DNA of 64,000 nt from Paracoccus sp. MBLB3053 (lineage in GTDB: Bacteria > Pseudomonadota > Alphaproteobacteria > Rhodobacterales > Rhodobacteraceae): NCBI RefSeq assembly GCF_031822435.1, contig NZ_JAVQLW010000004.1, positions 248,001-312,000 of the forward strand, in the 5' to 3' direction. The notes under the pieces were generated by a model, which saw nothing but the letters and a program-made list of their open reading frames with translations, searched no databases and was not told the DNA's origin. The position numbers were made by a program, and so were the translations under genes. Below, piece by piece: positions 48,089 through 61,953 of the stretch; the first letter of the stretch is position 1; each line of letters starts with the position of its first letter.

Positions 48089-49087
48089 TCAGGCGATCTG
48101 GAAGCCGTACCGCAGCGGGTCGTCGCTGTCCACGAGGATGGTGTTATGACCGATGATCCGCGCCCAGCCGCTGATGCCGGGCAGGATGCCGGGATAAGGA
48201 CCGACCATGACCTCGCGTTCGACCTTGCCCTCGAAGACGGTTCCGATCAGGCTCTTGTTGCGGAAATTCGCGCCCAAGGCCAGCCGGCCCTTGCCATGCA
48301 GCTGCGCCATCCGGGCCGAGGTGCCGGTCCCTCCGGGCGAACGGTCTATGGCCTTGTCACCATAGAACACCGCATCACGCCCGTCGCAATCCGCGCCATC
48401 CGGCCCGTCGCACCAGACGACGTGATGCACGCCCCGGATGCGATCATCCTGCGGATGGACCGGATCGCAGATCCCCGCCAGCGCGGCCCGCAGGGCGCGG
48501 CTGTGACCGACGATCTCGGCCGCGCCCATGCCTTCGAGGCCCGGCCAGTTGGGCTGCGGCTCGACCACGGCATAGAAATTGCCGCCATAGGCGATGTCGA
48601 CGACCATCCCACCCATACCGGGAACGTCCACGCGAACATCCGCTTCGTGCAGGTAGCTCGCGACATTGAAGAGCCGCACCGAAGTGACGCGGTCGCCTTC
48701 AAGTTCATAGGTGACGTCCACCCGTCCGGCCGGCGTCTCGATGGCAAGGCGGCCGGGCTCGCGCGGCGTGACCAGCCCTTCCTCGATGGCGACGGTGGCG
48801 AGCCCGATCGTGCCCGCCCCGCACATTGGCAGGCAGCCCGAAACCTCGATGAACAGCGCCGCGATGTCGCAATCCTCGCGGAACGGGGGATAAAGGATCA
48901 CACCCGACATGATGTCATGGCCGCGGGGCTCGAACATGAGCGCCTGGCGCACCCAGTCATGTTCGCGCAGGAAAAGGTCGCGCCGCTCGAAGATCGGCAG
49001 ATGCGGCAGGACCGGCCCGCCGCCCGCGACGACCCGGACCGGGTTGCCGCAGGCATGGGCGTCGATGCAGAAGAAGCGCTTACGCAT
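48089..49087 (-). CDS. Proline racemase family protein with a non-standard active site (possible hydroxyproline epimerase)
   Basis: 332 aa, length and fold typical of the proline racemase superfamily. The first catalytic Cys is present (Cys89 in PMCGAGTIG, with Ala replacing the usual His of MCGHGTIG). The second catalytic position, Cys in racemases/epimerases and Thr in 3-hydroxyproline dehydratases, is Gly252 in DRSPGGTGTSARMAQL; the codon is GGA and surrounding sequence is intact. In context the family would epimerise 4-hydroxyproline from L to D. With one acid/base missing, that activity is uncertain; dehydration or another one-base reaction is possible. It is the last gene of the ABC importer operon, one base after the permease stop. 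Confidence 0.8.
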   Translation of the reverse strand: MRKRFFCIDAHACGNPVRVVAGGGPVLPHLPIFERRDLFLREHDWVRQALMFEPRGHDIMSGVILYPPFREDCDIAALFIEVSGCLPMCGAGTIGLATVAIEEGLVTPREPGRLAIETPAGRVDVTYELEGDRVTSVRLFNVASYLHEADVRVDVPGMGGMVVDIAYGGNFYAVVEPQPNWPGLEGMGAAEIVGHSRALRAALAGICDPVHPQDDRIRGVHHVVWCDGPDGADCDGRDAVFYGDKAIDRSPGGTGTSARMAQLHGKGRLALGANFRNKSLIGTVFEGKVEREVMVGPYPGILPGISGWARIIGHNTILVDSDDPLRYGFQIA

Positions 49088-49088
49088 G

Positions 49089-49916
49089 CTAGCGGACCCG
49101 CGCTTCCAGCGCCCCGCGCGACATGCGGTCGAGCAGCAGCGCGACGGCGACGATGGCGAGCCCGGCGCGCAGGCCCAGACCCATCTCCATCCGGGTCAGG
49201 CCGCGCGTTACCTCGGCCCCAAGGCCCCCTGCCCCGACCAGCCCCGCCAGCACCACCATCGCGAGCGAAAGCAGGATGCACTGGTTCAGCCCGACCAGCA
49301 GCGTCGGACGGGCGGCGGGAAGCTCGATCTTGAACAGGATCGTGCCGGGTTTGGCACCGATCGCCTCGCCGAGTTCCTTGAGATCGGCGGGCACGCCGCG
49401 GAAGGCCAGCGTGGTCAGCCGCAGCATGGGCGGCACGCCATAGACGATGGTCGCGATGATCGCGGGCACCCGTCCCAGGCTGAAGATCATCACCGCCGGG
49501 ATCAGGTAGACCCAGGGCGGCACCGTCTGCATCACGTCGAGGACCGGGCGCAGCGCGGCCTCGACCGCGGGGCGCCGGGCGGCGAGGATGCCCAGCGGAA
49601 AGGCGATGACGACGGCGATCAGCACGGCGACGACGACCAGCGCGATGGTCTCCATCGAGGCCTTCCACAGCCCCATCCCCCAGCAGAAGCCAAGGCAGCA
49701 GGCGGCGAGAACCGCGACCCGCGCCCCAGCCGTCAGGAAGGCAAGGACGACCACCACCGGGATCAGGACAAAGGCTGGCGGCAGCAGAAGCGCGGCCTCG
49801 ATGCCACCCAGCACCGCCTCGATGACCCGCGCAATGGCGGCGAAAAGCGGGTGGAAATTGCTGTTCAGCCAATCGACCAGCGGCGCGAGCAGCGCGCCCG
49901 GAGAGAATTGCGTCAT
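49089..49916 (-). CDS. ProW-like ABC permease (betaine importer), subunit 2
   Basis: 275 aa, about six to seven membrane helices. The ABC permease loop reads ELGEAIGAKPGTILFKIELP followed by AARPTLLVGLNQCILLSLAM, the quaternary-amine permease pattern. A start at 49916 overlaps the stop of the preceding permease (ATGA). It is paired with a second, related permease, so the channel is a heterodimer instead of the ProW homodimer. Confidence 0.92.
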   Translation of the reverse strand: MTQFSPGALLAPLVDWLNSNFHPLFAAIARVIEAVLGGIEAALLLPPAFVLIPVVVVLAFLTAGARVAVLAACCLGFCWGMGLWKASMETIALVVVAVLIAVVIAFPLGILAARRPAVEAALRPVLDVMQTVPPWVYLIPAVMIFSLGRVPAIIATIVYGVPPMLRLTTLAFRGVPADLKELGEAIGAKPGTILFKIELPAARPTLLVGLNQCILLSLAMVVLAGLVGAGGLGAEVTRGLTRMEMGLGLRAGLAIVAVALLLDRMSRGALEARVR

Positions 49917-50743
49917 TTGCGGTCTCCTGCGAAGCTTTGGGTCACCCGGTCTAGCAGCATGGTCAGGATCACGATGGCGATCGAGGCATTGATCGAGGTC
50001 GCGATGTCCAGCGTCCGGATCGCGCCATAGATCGTCTCGCCCAGGCCCCCCGAGCCGACGATGCCCGCGATGACCACCATGCCGAAGGCCATCATCAGGC
50101 TCTGGTTGATGCCGGCCATGATCGAGGGCAGCGCAAAGGGCAGCCGGATCTTCACGAACATCTGCAAGGGCGTCACGCCAGAGGCATCGCCCAGCTCAAG
50201 GAACTCGTTCGGGGTGTGGCGGATGCCCAGCGAAGTCAGGCGGATCGCCGGCGGGATCGCCACGATGACTGTCGCGACCAGTGCCGTCGCCGGGCCGAAA
50301 CCCAGAAGCGCGATCGAGGGCAAGAGGTAGATATAGGGTGGCATGGTCTGGATCAGGTCGAGCACCGGGACCAGCGCCCGGTCCAGGCGCGGCATCAGCC
50401 CGGCCAGCACCCCGACCGGCAGGCCGATTGCCAGCGCGATGACGCTGGCGGCAGCGACCAGCGCCAGGGTCTCCATGGTTTCGGGCCAAAGCGACATCGC
50501 CCAGCAGCCGATCAGCGCAAGGGCGGTGACGGCGGCGGCCAGGGCACCGAGCCTGCGCCAGGCGACCAGGGCAGCGAGCGCCGCGACGACGTAGAAGGGC
50601 GGCAGCATCAGCAGCCAGAGCAGACCGTCAAAGAGCCCCTCGAGCAGGGCGCGCGCACCGTCGAACAGGAAGGCCGCATGGTCCGACAGCCAGAACAGCG
50701 CGTCGTCGACCGTGGTGTCGAAGGCAGAGATGAAATCCTCCAT
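49913..50743 (-). CDS. ProW-like ABC permease (betaine importer), subunit 1
   Basis: 276 aa. It is similar in plan to the next permease: EFLELGDASGVTPLQMFVKI, RLPFALPSIMAGINQSLMMA and GMVVIAGIVGSGGLGETIYG form the EAA loop and following helix of quaternary-amine permeases. The N-terminal part is a periplasmic or amphipathic region followed by a helix pair. It starts 10 bp after the ATPase gene's stop. Confidence 0.92.
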   Translation of the reverse strand: MEDFISAFDTTVDDALFWLSDHAAFLFDGARALLEGLFDGLLWLLMLPPFYVVAALAALVAWRRLGALAAAVTALALIGCWAMSLWPETMETLALVAAASVIALAIGLPVGVLAGLMPRLDRALVPVLDLIQTMPPYIYLLPSIALLGFGPATALVATVIVAIPPAIRLTSLGIRHTPNEFLELGDASGVTPLQMFVKIRLPFALPSIMAGINQSLMMAFGMVVIAGIVGSGGLGETIYGAIRTLDIATSINASIAIVILTMLLDRVTQSFAGDRK

Positions 50744-50753
50744 TCCCGCCCCC

Positions 50754-60801: not shown

Positions 60802-61019
60802 GGGTATCTCCTTTGCGGTCCGAAGGGCCGGATGTCCCTAGGAATGAAAACGGGCCGCGCCTGGCGCGTGGCCTTGGTCAGCAGGGTGTTTGCCGCAAGC
60901 TTGCCATGATCGCCTGATGACGGCGGCAGCGCGACGTGCCTGCTGTGCTGGTCATCTGCGCCATGGCGGGGTCTCCTGTGATGCGGCGGGCTCTGCCGGG
61001 ACAATCGGACCTGGGCTGT

Positions 61020-61032
61020 CCGTTGACAACGG
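61020..61032. promoter_or_regulatory. Palindrome in the divergent Rieske/LysR promoter region
   Basis: CCGTTG-A-CAACGG, perfect 6-bp arms with a single central base. It contains a TTGACA on the plus strand that could serve as a -35 box. A CTAAT core, on the minus strand at about 61052-61056, lies close by. Candidate site for the LysR regulator encoded at 61078. Confidence 0.4.
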
Positions 61033-61077
61033 CACAAAAATTCATTCTGGATTAGTTGAATTAACCCATGGTGTCCC

Positions 61078-61953
61078 TTGCGTAGACCTTATGACCTTGC
61101 CTCGATCACTGCCCTGCTGTCCTTTGAGGCCGCGGGCCGGCATCTGAGCTTCAAGCTTGCGGCAAAAGAGACTAATGTCACCCCGGCCGCGGTCAGCCAT
61201 CAGATCAAGGCCTTGGAGCAGGATCTTGGCTGCGCGATGTTCATCCGTCGGCATCGCGGGGTCGAGCTCACCGAGAAGGGAGCCTTCCTGTTGATCACCC
61301 TGCAGCGGGCCTTGGAGACGATTTCGGATTCGGTCACCCAATTGCGCGAAAGCACGGACAAGGTCGATGTGACCATCCGCGCCACGACCGCCGTCAGCTC
61401 GCTTTGGCTGACGCCCAAGATCGGCGCCTTCTGGAAGGTTTATCCCGACATTTCTGTCTCGCAGATCATCAGTGACGTTCCGGGCAGCGCCGGGAAATAT
61501 GATCTGAGCATCCGCTATGCCATGCCGCAGCAGGATGACGAGGAATGGCGACCGCTTTTCCAGGACCGGATCCTGGCATTGGGAAGCGAGGCGTTCCGCC
61601 AGCAGCATGACATTCGCCATGCATCCGATTTGATGAACGTGCCGCTGATCCATATGCGCAGCGAGGAAAATGACTGGACCGGATGGTCGGACTGGTTCCG
61701 GGCCTTGGGTCTGGCCGCTGCGAAAGGGCGCAGCATGCACGTCAACAATCACATGATTGCCCTTCAGGCGGCGCAGGACGACGTCGGTGCGGTGCTGGGA
61801 TGGGAGCGGCTGCTGGGCGACAGGCTTGGGCAGATGGGCCTCGTCAGGCTTGTCCCGGAAAGCCTGCCCTCACCCGCCGGTTTCCACCTGACGATCCATT
61901 CCCGCGCCTCGGCAAAGGCGCGCCTGTTCGCCGACTGGCTTACCAAGGCATAG
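61078..61953 (+). CDS. GcvA-type LysR regulator divergent from the Rieske gene
   Basis: 291 aa. The only workable start is a TTG at 61078 (an ATG at 61068 is out of frame and stops at once); no clear ribosome-binding site precedes it, so leaderless or weak translation is possible. The HTH reads LLSFEAAGRHLSFKLAAKET and NVTPAAVSHQIKALEQDLG, again GcvA subgroup. It resembles the regulator at 52977 but with different effector-domain residues. Divergent from the Rieske gene over a 276-bp gap, the classical arrangement of a LysR activator and target. Confidence 0.87.
   Translation: MRRPYDLASITALLSFEAAGRHLSFKLAAKETNVTPAAVSHQIKALEQDLGCAMFIRRHRGVELTEKGAFLLITLQRALETISDSVTQLRESTDKVDVTIRATTAVSSLWLTPKIGAFWKVYPDISVSQIISDVPGSAGKYDLSIRYAMPQQDDEEWRPLFQDRILALGSEAFRQQHDIRHASDLMNVPLIHMRSEENDWTGWSDWFRALGLAAAKGRSMHVNNHMIALQAAQDDVGAVLGWERLLGDRLGQMGLVRLVPESLPSPAGFHLTIHSRASAKARLFADWLTKA

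Follow-up and report, generated by a model that had tools for sequence, protein, structure and literature searches.

Which compound is taken up and degraded by a gene cluster that joins a betaine-type importer to a protein named as a 4-hydroxyproline epimerase? The cluster lies in a stretch of 64,000 nucleotides of Paracoccus sp. MBLB3053 (the window; contig NZ_JAVQLW010000004.1, here C4, positions 248001–312000), in a genome of 4.6 Mb and 8 contigs. It contains a ProX/V/W/W importer, a proline-racemase-superfamily protein, a flavin oxidase of the DAO family, a DHDPS-family lyase, an aldehyde dehydrogenase (ALDH) and a neighbouring Rieske oxygenase with its reductase. Hydroxyproline betaine is an osmolyte of plants and algae, and the original prediction for this locus had proposed the uptake and breakdown of that compound or of a related betaine. 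All of the genes that it named were recovered as intact frames, both in the frame list and by profile searches. An N-methylated hydroxyproline is the probable class of substrate. The most interesting point is the racemase-family protein, which belongs to a one-cysteine clade that is database-named 4-hydroxyproline epimerase and travels with betaine-type importers.

A one-cysteine clade in the proline racemase superfamily

In protein Q4KGU2 the catalytic residues are Cys88 and Cys236, with His90 and Asp232 at the prolyl nitrogen (PMC4113996). The aligned residues of the window protein are Cys89, Gly252, Ala91 and Asp248, so that the first cysteine and the aspartate are kept, the second cysteine is replaced by glycine and the histidine by alanine. 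This signature, called CG below, was found in 22/22 CG loci and in all 120 of the nearest database proteins listed, the window's own included. The group with both cysteines (Cys/Cys) has Cys, Cys, His and Asp in 19 of 20 rows; in the remaining row, that of a divergent second paralogue in Colwellia, the second cysteine is Thr. Hydroxyproline enzymes are marked by Ser or Val at position R1 and by His at R2, facing the 4-hydroxyl group (PMC1964878), and these positions are Ser and His in every CG locus (Ser61 and His222 in the window protein). In the tree a branch supported at 100/100 separates the CG rows from the others, with long branches in other parts. The identity to the window protein also shows a gap: at least 71% for CG proteins against at most 59% for the others (60 listed of 334 plasmid records), at least 74% against at most 57% within the genus, and at least 65% against at most 50% in another homologue listing. 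The Cys/Cys paralogue of the same genome is 56% identical to it.

The window protein resembles the Cys/Cys 4-hydroxyproline 2-epimerases (4HypE) in the first cysteine, the aspartate, the 4-hydroxyl contacts and a score above the cutoff of their family model, PRK13971; unlike them, the CG clade does not have two catalytic acid/base residues on opposite faces, nor the histidine that contacts the nitrogen. Since the C88S and C236S mutants of the Pseudomonas aeruginosa enzyme lose activity (PMC1964878), an ordinary epimerase role is unlikely, and 4HypE was rejected as the first choice, the second catalytic cysteine being glycine throughout the clade sampled. CG proteins carry the name "4-hydroxyproline epimerase" in records of Rhizobium, Pseudomonas, Agrobacterium and Paracoccus. 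Superfamily members with a single base (Cys/Thr or Ser/Thr) act as dehydratases (PMC4113996, a study in which 51 proteins were assayed). A Cys/Gly pair would suit a trans-3-hydroxyproline dehydratase (t3HypD), but this is less likely in view of the retained 4-hydroxyl contacts and the accompanying DAO, DHDPS and ALDH genes; dehydration of a 3-hydroxy betaine is conceivable. Among the titles and abstract openings of the literature matches listed none concerned the CG clade, which does not prove that such work is absent.

Genomic company of the clade

The 22 CG loci comprise the window, nine loci from a homologue listing, nine of ten plasmid regions examined out of 60 listed rows and three relatives in the genus, a duplicate (L026) having been dropped. 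The 19 Cys/Cys loci, mostly picks from the top of lists, are those of Sinorhizobium meliloti, the start of contig C3 of the same genome, 11 of 22 matches in the genus, four of a class sample of 61 and two of Colwellia. Neighbours were counted in stretches of unequal length reaching at most 15 kb on each side; the counts depend on identity thresholds, the loci are mutually related and the tests ignore this kinship. A ProX-type binding protein accompanies 22/22 CG but 0/19 Cys/Cys genes. A PAAT-type binding protein, the hydroxyproline transporter type of S. meliloti, is found in 0/22 CG loci and 11/19 Cys/Cys loci (12 if the other C3 end of the same genome is counted). Aconitase X and Ser/Thr t3HypD are each absent from all 22 CG loci and present in 13/19 of the Cys/Cys loci. 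Conversely, a Rieske oxygenase occurs in 7/22 and 0/19 loci (p 0.01), any demethylation or one-carbon (C1) gene in 8/22 and 0/19 (p 0.004), and an OYE protein in 1/22 and 0/19, respectively.

The pair of importer and racemase-family gene recurs in Pseudomonas, Rhizobium, Pseudorhizobium, Agrobacterium, Rhodoferax and Paracoccus, and the gene order is therefore beyond chance. In Rhizobium sp. N324 and R. etli the operon is framed by an OYE flavoenzyme, EtfAB, cupins, glutathione-dependent formaldehyde genes and a Rieske pair, with PutA nearby; a GbdR-like regulator is present in the Rhizobium locus. One CG operon (L028) includes a serine hydroxymethyltransferase (SHMT) gene, and in Rhodoferax lacus (L011, 11010–17089) PurU, a LysR regulator, a Rieske pair and an MttB-family methyltransferase lie beside the CG gene.

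Around the Rhizobium cluster (L015; 537–1142, 2895–3593 and 17190–18470) lie two dimethylsulfoniopropionate-lyase-type cupins and an M24 protein resembling DddP (361 bits against a cutoff of 600). In two Paracoccus relatives (L025, L027) a racemase-family gene of Ser/Cys type adjoins the CG gene; it is fragmented in L025.

Relatives that tie the enzymes to HpbD and StcD

Both PMC4113996 and PMC5144071 cite the hydroxyproline betaine (Hpb) pathway and its epimerase HpbD. The two closest relatives of the window Rieske oxygenase, sought among 101 genomes, are 87% (G441) and 78% (G408) identical to it and lie about 4 kb and 18 kb, respectively, from HpbD-like enolases, that of G441 showing 67% identity. 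In G408 (C2:72–93 kb) an HpbD-like enolase (66%) shares its locus with DAO (59%), ALDH (77%), DHDPS (71%), StcD-like (72%), t3HypD (84%), reductase (75%) and Rieske (78%) proteins; betaine-type ABC genes are present and the window-type binding protein is absent. This locus perhaps serves 3- and 4-hydroxyproline betaines together. The same stretch (L080 with L065) also contains a P5CR-like frame and two OYE proteins. The enolase of G418 (L068) scored 777 bits against PDB entries 4e8g, 4izg and 4j1o, and 535 bits against 2pmq and 4h2h, entries which we take to be HpbD and its relatives. LhpJ, a close enolase, has another role (PMC5144071). The HpbD-like genes near the Rieske relatives, joined in G408 by DHDPS, ALDH and DAO, bear out the earlier proposal of a betaine-type substrate and of a variant of the described pathway.

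Sixty genomes of the genus were divided into 16 with a homologue of the window DHDPS (E ≤ 1e-110) and 44 without, uncorrected for kinship. For HpbD at least 60% identity was required, weaker enolases being dropped; StcD-like and Rieske proteins were counted at E ≤ 1e-150, with glycine-betaine Rieske types included. HpbD occurred in 5/16 genomes with the DHDPS homologue against 1/44 without, StcD-like proteins in 15/16 against 23/44 and Rieske relatives in 16/16 against 22/44. Cys/Cys 4HypE was not enriched (5/16 against 18/44, p 0.56). Together with the HpbD neighbourhoods, this co-occurrence points to an N-methylated rather than a free hydroxyproline.

Importer and Rieske pair

The positions of the three cage tryptophans of OpuAC were mapped onto the window ProX by alignment; one of them is Trp in 22/22 loci and another in 20/22. 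The best PDB match of the Rieske oxygenase is 3n0q, followed over nearly the full length by 3vca and 4qup, the last titled as a monooxygenase/demethylase. We take 3vca and 4qup to be Stc2, a proline-betaine demethylase, which the window protein resembles over almost its whole length, although 3n0q outscores it. The Rieske demethylase and reductase of the Hpb pathway have counterparts here at the family level. Glycine betaine was rejected as the substrate, because the curated cutoff of the glycine betaine monooxygenase GbcA model was missed and contig C3 has a separate glycine-betaine locus.

Compared with the Hpb pathway, the system is alike in its betaine-type ABC importer, its Rieske pair, a StcD-like enzyme in the genome, the DAO, DHDPS and ALDH superfamilies, and the homologues of window enzymes that share a locus with the HpbD-like gene of G408. 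It differs in a genome without HpbD, in the racemase-superfamily protein within the operon and in having no local N-methyl demethylase.

Oxidase, lyase and aldehyde dehydrogenase

The HypMNPQ-type names presumably match genes of the S. meliloti-type cluster used for comparison (L017). HypMNPQ are named for the S. meliloti hyp cluster in PMC5343134. The two clusters share the oxidase, epimerase, DHDPS and ALDH superfamilies but differ in transporter family, catalytic residues and sequence. By BLAST, the window DHDPS is 26% and the ALDH 28% identical to their S. meliloti-type counterparts, and the two DAO proteins gave no match; with the differing DHDPS motifs and the missing second cysteine of the racemase-family protein, the earlier statement that the known hydroxyproline route fits gene for gene is not supported, and the enzymes correspond at the level of superfamilies only.

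The oxidase had no match among PDB sequences at 1e-5. Its nearest models, L-pipecolate oxidase AmaA and an aminophosphonate oxidase, were far under their cutoffs; the S. meliloti-type oxidase is D-amino-acid-dehydrogenase-like, likewise below cutoff.

PMC3188589 gives the residues at work in DHDPS and in human 4-hydroxy-2-oxoglutarate aldolase (HOGA). GSTGE, Tyr107, Tyr133, Arg138, Lys161 and a Ser two past the Lys are present in 17/17 window-type lyases, and the type-I aldolase set among them (GXXGE, Tyr107, Tyr133, Lys161 and Ser at the place of HOGA Ser198) is complete in all 17. By contrast, the S. meliloti HypD type has GSMGD, Leu, Tyr, Tyr, Lys and Phe in 13/13. In r-type sequences GSTGE or GTTGE is found in 13/14 and the single residues in 14/14; four v-type sequences have SGTGL or SGTGM, Phe107, and Val or Ala at 138. 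The window lyase shares with HOGA the GSxGE loop, both tyrosines, the lysine and the serine two past it, and differs in Thr for Asn78 and Arg for Asn173 (PMC3188589). Because the type-I aldolase residues are kept, and the HypD type is without them, the DHDPS-family protein resembles an aldolase. Its reaction may be an aldol split or the classical deamination, and other pyrroline-hydroxy-carboxylate deaminases may differ in these residues. A variant cluster with a different DHDPS (SGTGL/SGTGM motif) is found in the Paracoccus relatives L016, L025, L027 and L082.

Besides the PuuC model, the ALDH matched the aminobutyraldehyde (449 bits), betaine aldehyde (448) and GudD-type 2-oxoglutarate-semialdehyde (356) models, all below cutoff; its best PDB match was 7uyy, followed by PuuC- and KauB-type entries. 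This would place it on the aminoaldehyde side of its family, but the comparison is weak because none of these models gives a high score with the S. meliloti-type ALDH.

Related loci elsewhere in the genome

A S. meliloti-like hydroxyproline cluster spans both ends of contig C3 (L112, L029), with identities to the S. meliloti type of 72% (Ldh), 85–89% (importer), 78% (DAO), 91% (epimerase), 67% (AcnX), 83% (t3HypD), 73% (GntR) and 83% (DHDPS); because of this course over both ends, C3 is taken as a probable circular replicon of 438 kb. No counterpart of that cluster's ALDH turned up in the contig stretches that were searched, which make up a small share of the genome. As the genome has this separate, nearly complete cluster, the one in the window is probably not needed for free hydroxyproline.

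No whole-genome match to HpbD was obtained at E ≤ 1e-60, and in eight examined of nine MR_MLE matches the best identity to an HpbD-type enolase was 30%. The absence of an enolase-superfamily epimerase, noted before for this region, thus extends to the genome. That of a separate N-methylproline demethylase is correct for the window but perhaps not for the genome, in which C3:373158–375188 encodes a StcD-like OYE protein that shares 74% identity with its homologue in the Rhizobium locus and may act as a demethylase of the N-methylproline type. The glycine-betaine locus on C3 (L060) has its own Rieske pair, and a third Rieske protein is encoded on C1.

Gene layout

The features of the region are collected in Table 1. 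From the DHDPS gene the minus-strand order is DHDPS, ALDH, DAO, LysR, ProX, ProV, ProW, ProW and the racemase-family gene, with gaps of 1, 2, about 23, 238 (before ProX), -4, 10, -4 and 1 bases, the start of the first LysR regulator being taken at its first ATG. This stretch is operon-like. A longer frame option extends the DHDPS gene to 57781.

Table 1. Features of the cluster and its Rieske neighbours (window positions)
Feature	Position	Strand	Best matches
Proline-racemase-superfamily protein, CG clade	48089..49087	-	Pfam PF05544 410 bits; NCBIfam PRK13971 538 vs cutoff 376
ProW-type permease 2	49089..49916	-	NCBIfam ABC_choXWV_perm 271 bits, below cutoff 363; PF00528
ProW-type permease 1	49913..50743	-	NCBIfam ABC_choXWV_perm 243 bits, below cutoff 363
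ProV-type ATPase	50754..51890	-	TIGR01186 proV 357 vs cutoff 327
ProX/OpuAC-type substrate-binding protein	51887..52738	-	PF04069 217 bits
LysR-family regulator 1	52977..53921	-	Nearest models choline-sulfate regulator and GcvA, below cutoffs
FAD oxidase, DAO family	53945..55288	-	Nearest named model L-pipecolate oxidase AmaA, 131 of 600 bits
Aldehyde dehydrogenase	55291..56802	-	Nearest PuuC model, 525 of 850 bits
DHDPS-family lyase, type-I aldolase residue set	56804..57721	-	PF00701 202 bits
Relics: GlxA/GbdR-type regulator and sarcosine oxidase beta N-terminus	57870..58348	+	blastx, blastn
GbcB-like Rieske reductase	58471..59556	-	NCBIfam GbcB 354, below cutoff 500
Rieske oxygenase	59560..60801	-	PDB 3n0q 653 bits, 3vca/4qup 587 bits; GbcA model 493, below cutoff 670
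LysR-family regulator 2, divergent from Rieske gene	61078..61953	+	

The Rieske oxygenase and its reductase lie upstream of this stretch, at a distance of some 750 bases that contain the plus-strand relics, those of the regulator at about 57870–58064 and of the sarcosine oxidase beta N-terminus at about 58199–58348. Both resemble genes of the glycine-betaine locus on C3, to which two DNA stretches in this scar are 69% and 79% alike. Because the scar separates them, the Rieske unit and the unit from DHDPS to the racemase-family gene are two units side by side and not visibly one operon.

Proposed pathway and alternatives

From the gene content, residues, conservation and genomic company described above, we infer a cluster for the uptake and breakdown of N-methylated 4-hydroxyproline, the likeliest form being trans-4-hydroxyproline betaine. 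The ProX/V/W/W system, judged from its family, would import the compound, and the Rieske pair, with its Stc2-like family and the company of its relatives, would take off one N-methyl group as formaldehyde; the StcD-like flavoenzyme, whose gene lies on another contig, could take off the second. In place of HpbD, the CG enzyme would invert the C-alpha of the N-substituted ring by means of its single remaining cysteine. The flavin oxidase would then open the ring through C–N oxidation, the DHDPS-family lyase would cleave or deaminate the resulting 4-hydroxy-2-oxo acid, and the aldehyde dehydrogenase would oxidise the aldehyde. With every step as given, we lean only slightly towards this scheme.

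A further version, in which CG proteins would epimerise N-methylated hydroxyprolines with one cysteine (as the racemase-superfamily counterpart of HpbD) and the operon ends in an aldol split instead of 2-oxoglutarate, is distinctly doubtful as a whole. In it, ring oxidation would give 5-(methylamino)-4-hydroxy-2-oxopentanoate, which the DHDPS-family aldolase would split into pyruvate and (methyl)aminoacetaldehyde, the latter being converted by the PuuC/KauB-like dehydrogenase to sarcosine or glycine. As these would be the products, the SHMT gene of L028, the PurU gene of L011 and the sarcosine-oxidase relic would be accounted for.

Several observations weigh against degradation of an N-methylated 4-hydroxyproline by way of the CG enzyme. 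Epimerisation normally uses two bases, and the C236S mutant mentioned above is inactive (PMC1964878). Within the stretches compared, at most 15 kb on each side, HpbD was present in 0/22 CG and 0/19 Cys/Cys loci, and 14/22 CG loci, including all six of Pseudomonas and all three of Agrobacterium, had no demethylation or C1 gene in the same range. The third cage position of OpuAC is not Trp in the window ProX, and the Rieske unit sits behind a scar. Among the 16 genus genomes with the DHDPS homologue, eight have neither HpbD nor the CG enzyme, three of these with a Cys/Cys 4HypE; G412 and G431 gave fragments or weak matches only. G418 and G442 have both enzymes. In G395 and G415 the order DHDPS-ALDH-DAO-LysR occurs with no racemase-family or HpbD match, the importer being present in G395 and not in G415, so not every version of the route depends on inversion. 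With both enzymes in G418 and G442 and neither in G395 and G415, the idea that the CG enzyme strictly replaces HpbD one for one was rejected.

The scar also suits two unrelated neighbours, a Rieske pair acting on proline-type or glycine betaine and an operon degrading an unmethylated relative, such as another stereoisomer of hydroxyproline, or an N-methylhydroxyproline imported as such, with no need of a Rieske enzyme. Fifteen of the 22 CG loci, again with all six Pseudomonas and all three Agrobacterium, have no Rieske gene in the stretches compared, and several Paracoccus relatives have the operon without the Rieske pair. Against this, the same enzymes are linked to Rieske, StcD-like or HpbD-like genes in varied arrangements (L080 with L065, L081, L082, L075), and all genus genomes with the DHDPS homologue have a Rieske relative, compared with half of the rest. 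We regard this reading as unlikely. A second, ordinary trans-4-hydroxyproline cluster, as annotated, with 4-hydroxyproline epimerase, D-hydroxyproline oxidase, deaminase and 2-oxoglutarate-semialdehyde dehydrogenase, would agree with the NCBIfam equivalog name of PRK13971 and with superfamilies that match the known route. It is quite improbable in view of the second cysteine lost in all CG loci, the distance of the inner enzymes from the S. meliloti type, including DHDPS residues that differ throughout (17/17 vs 13/13), the presence of most of that cluster elsewhere in the genome and the lack of enrichment of Cys/Cys epimerases with the DHDPS homologue. Very improbable, finally, is another hydroxylated betaine amino acid, which the oxidase would turn into a 4-hydroxy-2-oxo acid, the lyase into pyruvate and a betaine-type aldehyde, and the ALDH into glycine betaine or a methylated glycine for demethylation by the Rieske pair. 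The aldolase-like DHDPS residues, an ALDH near PuuC, KauB and betaine-aldehyde dehydrogenases, the GbdR-like regulator of the Rhizobium locus and the regulator and SoxB relics of the window would accord with it, but Ser61 and His222 of the 4-hydroxyproline pocket are kept in 22/22, close Rieske relatives lie near HpbD-like genes and the GbcA cutoff was missed.

If hydroxyproline betaine is what the CG clade acts on, the name 4-hydroxyproline epimerase is wrong throughout the clade, and its proteins add to the superfamily a one-base enzyme with a new specificity; an aldolase role of the lyase would mean a second bacterial route out of hydroxyproline.

Flanking frames

Past the end of the racemase-family gene, at 43311–47796 on the plus strand, are TetR-like, TRAP-type binding protein and permease frames and another enzyme frame, named from frame reading alone. 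A second DHDPS-family frame, about 29% identical to the DHDPS of the cluster, lies on the minus strand at 63289–63999 and continues past the end of the window.

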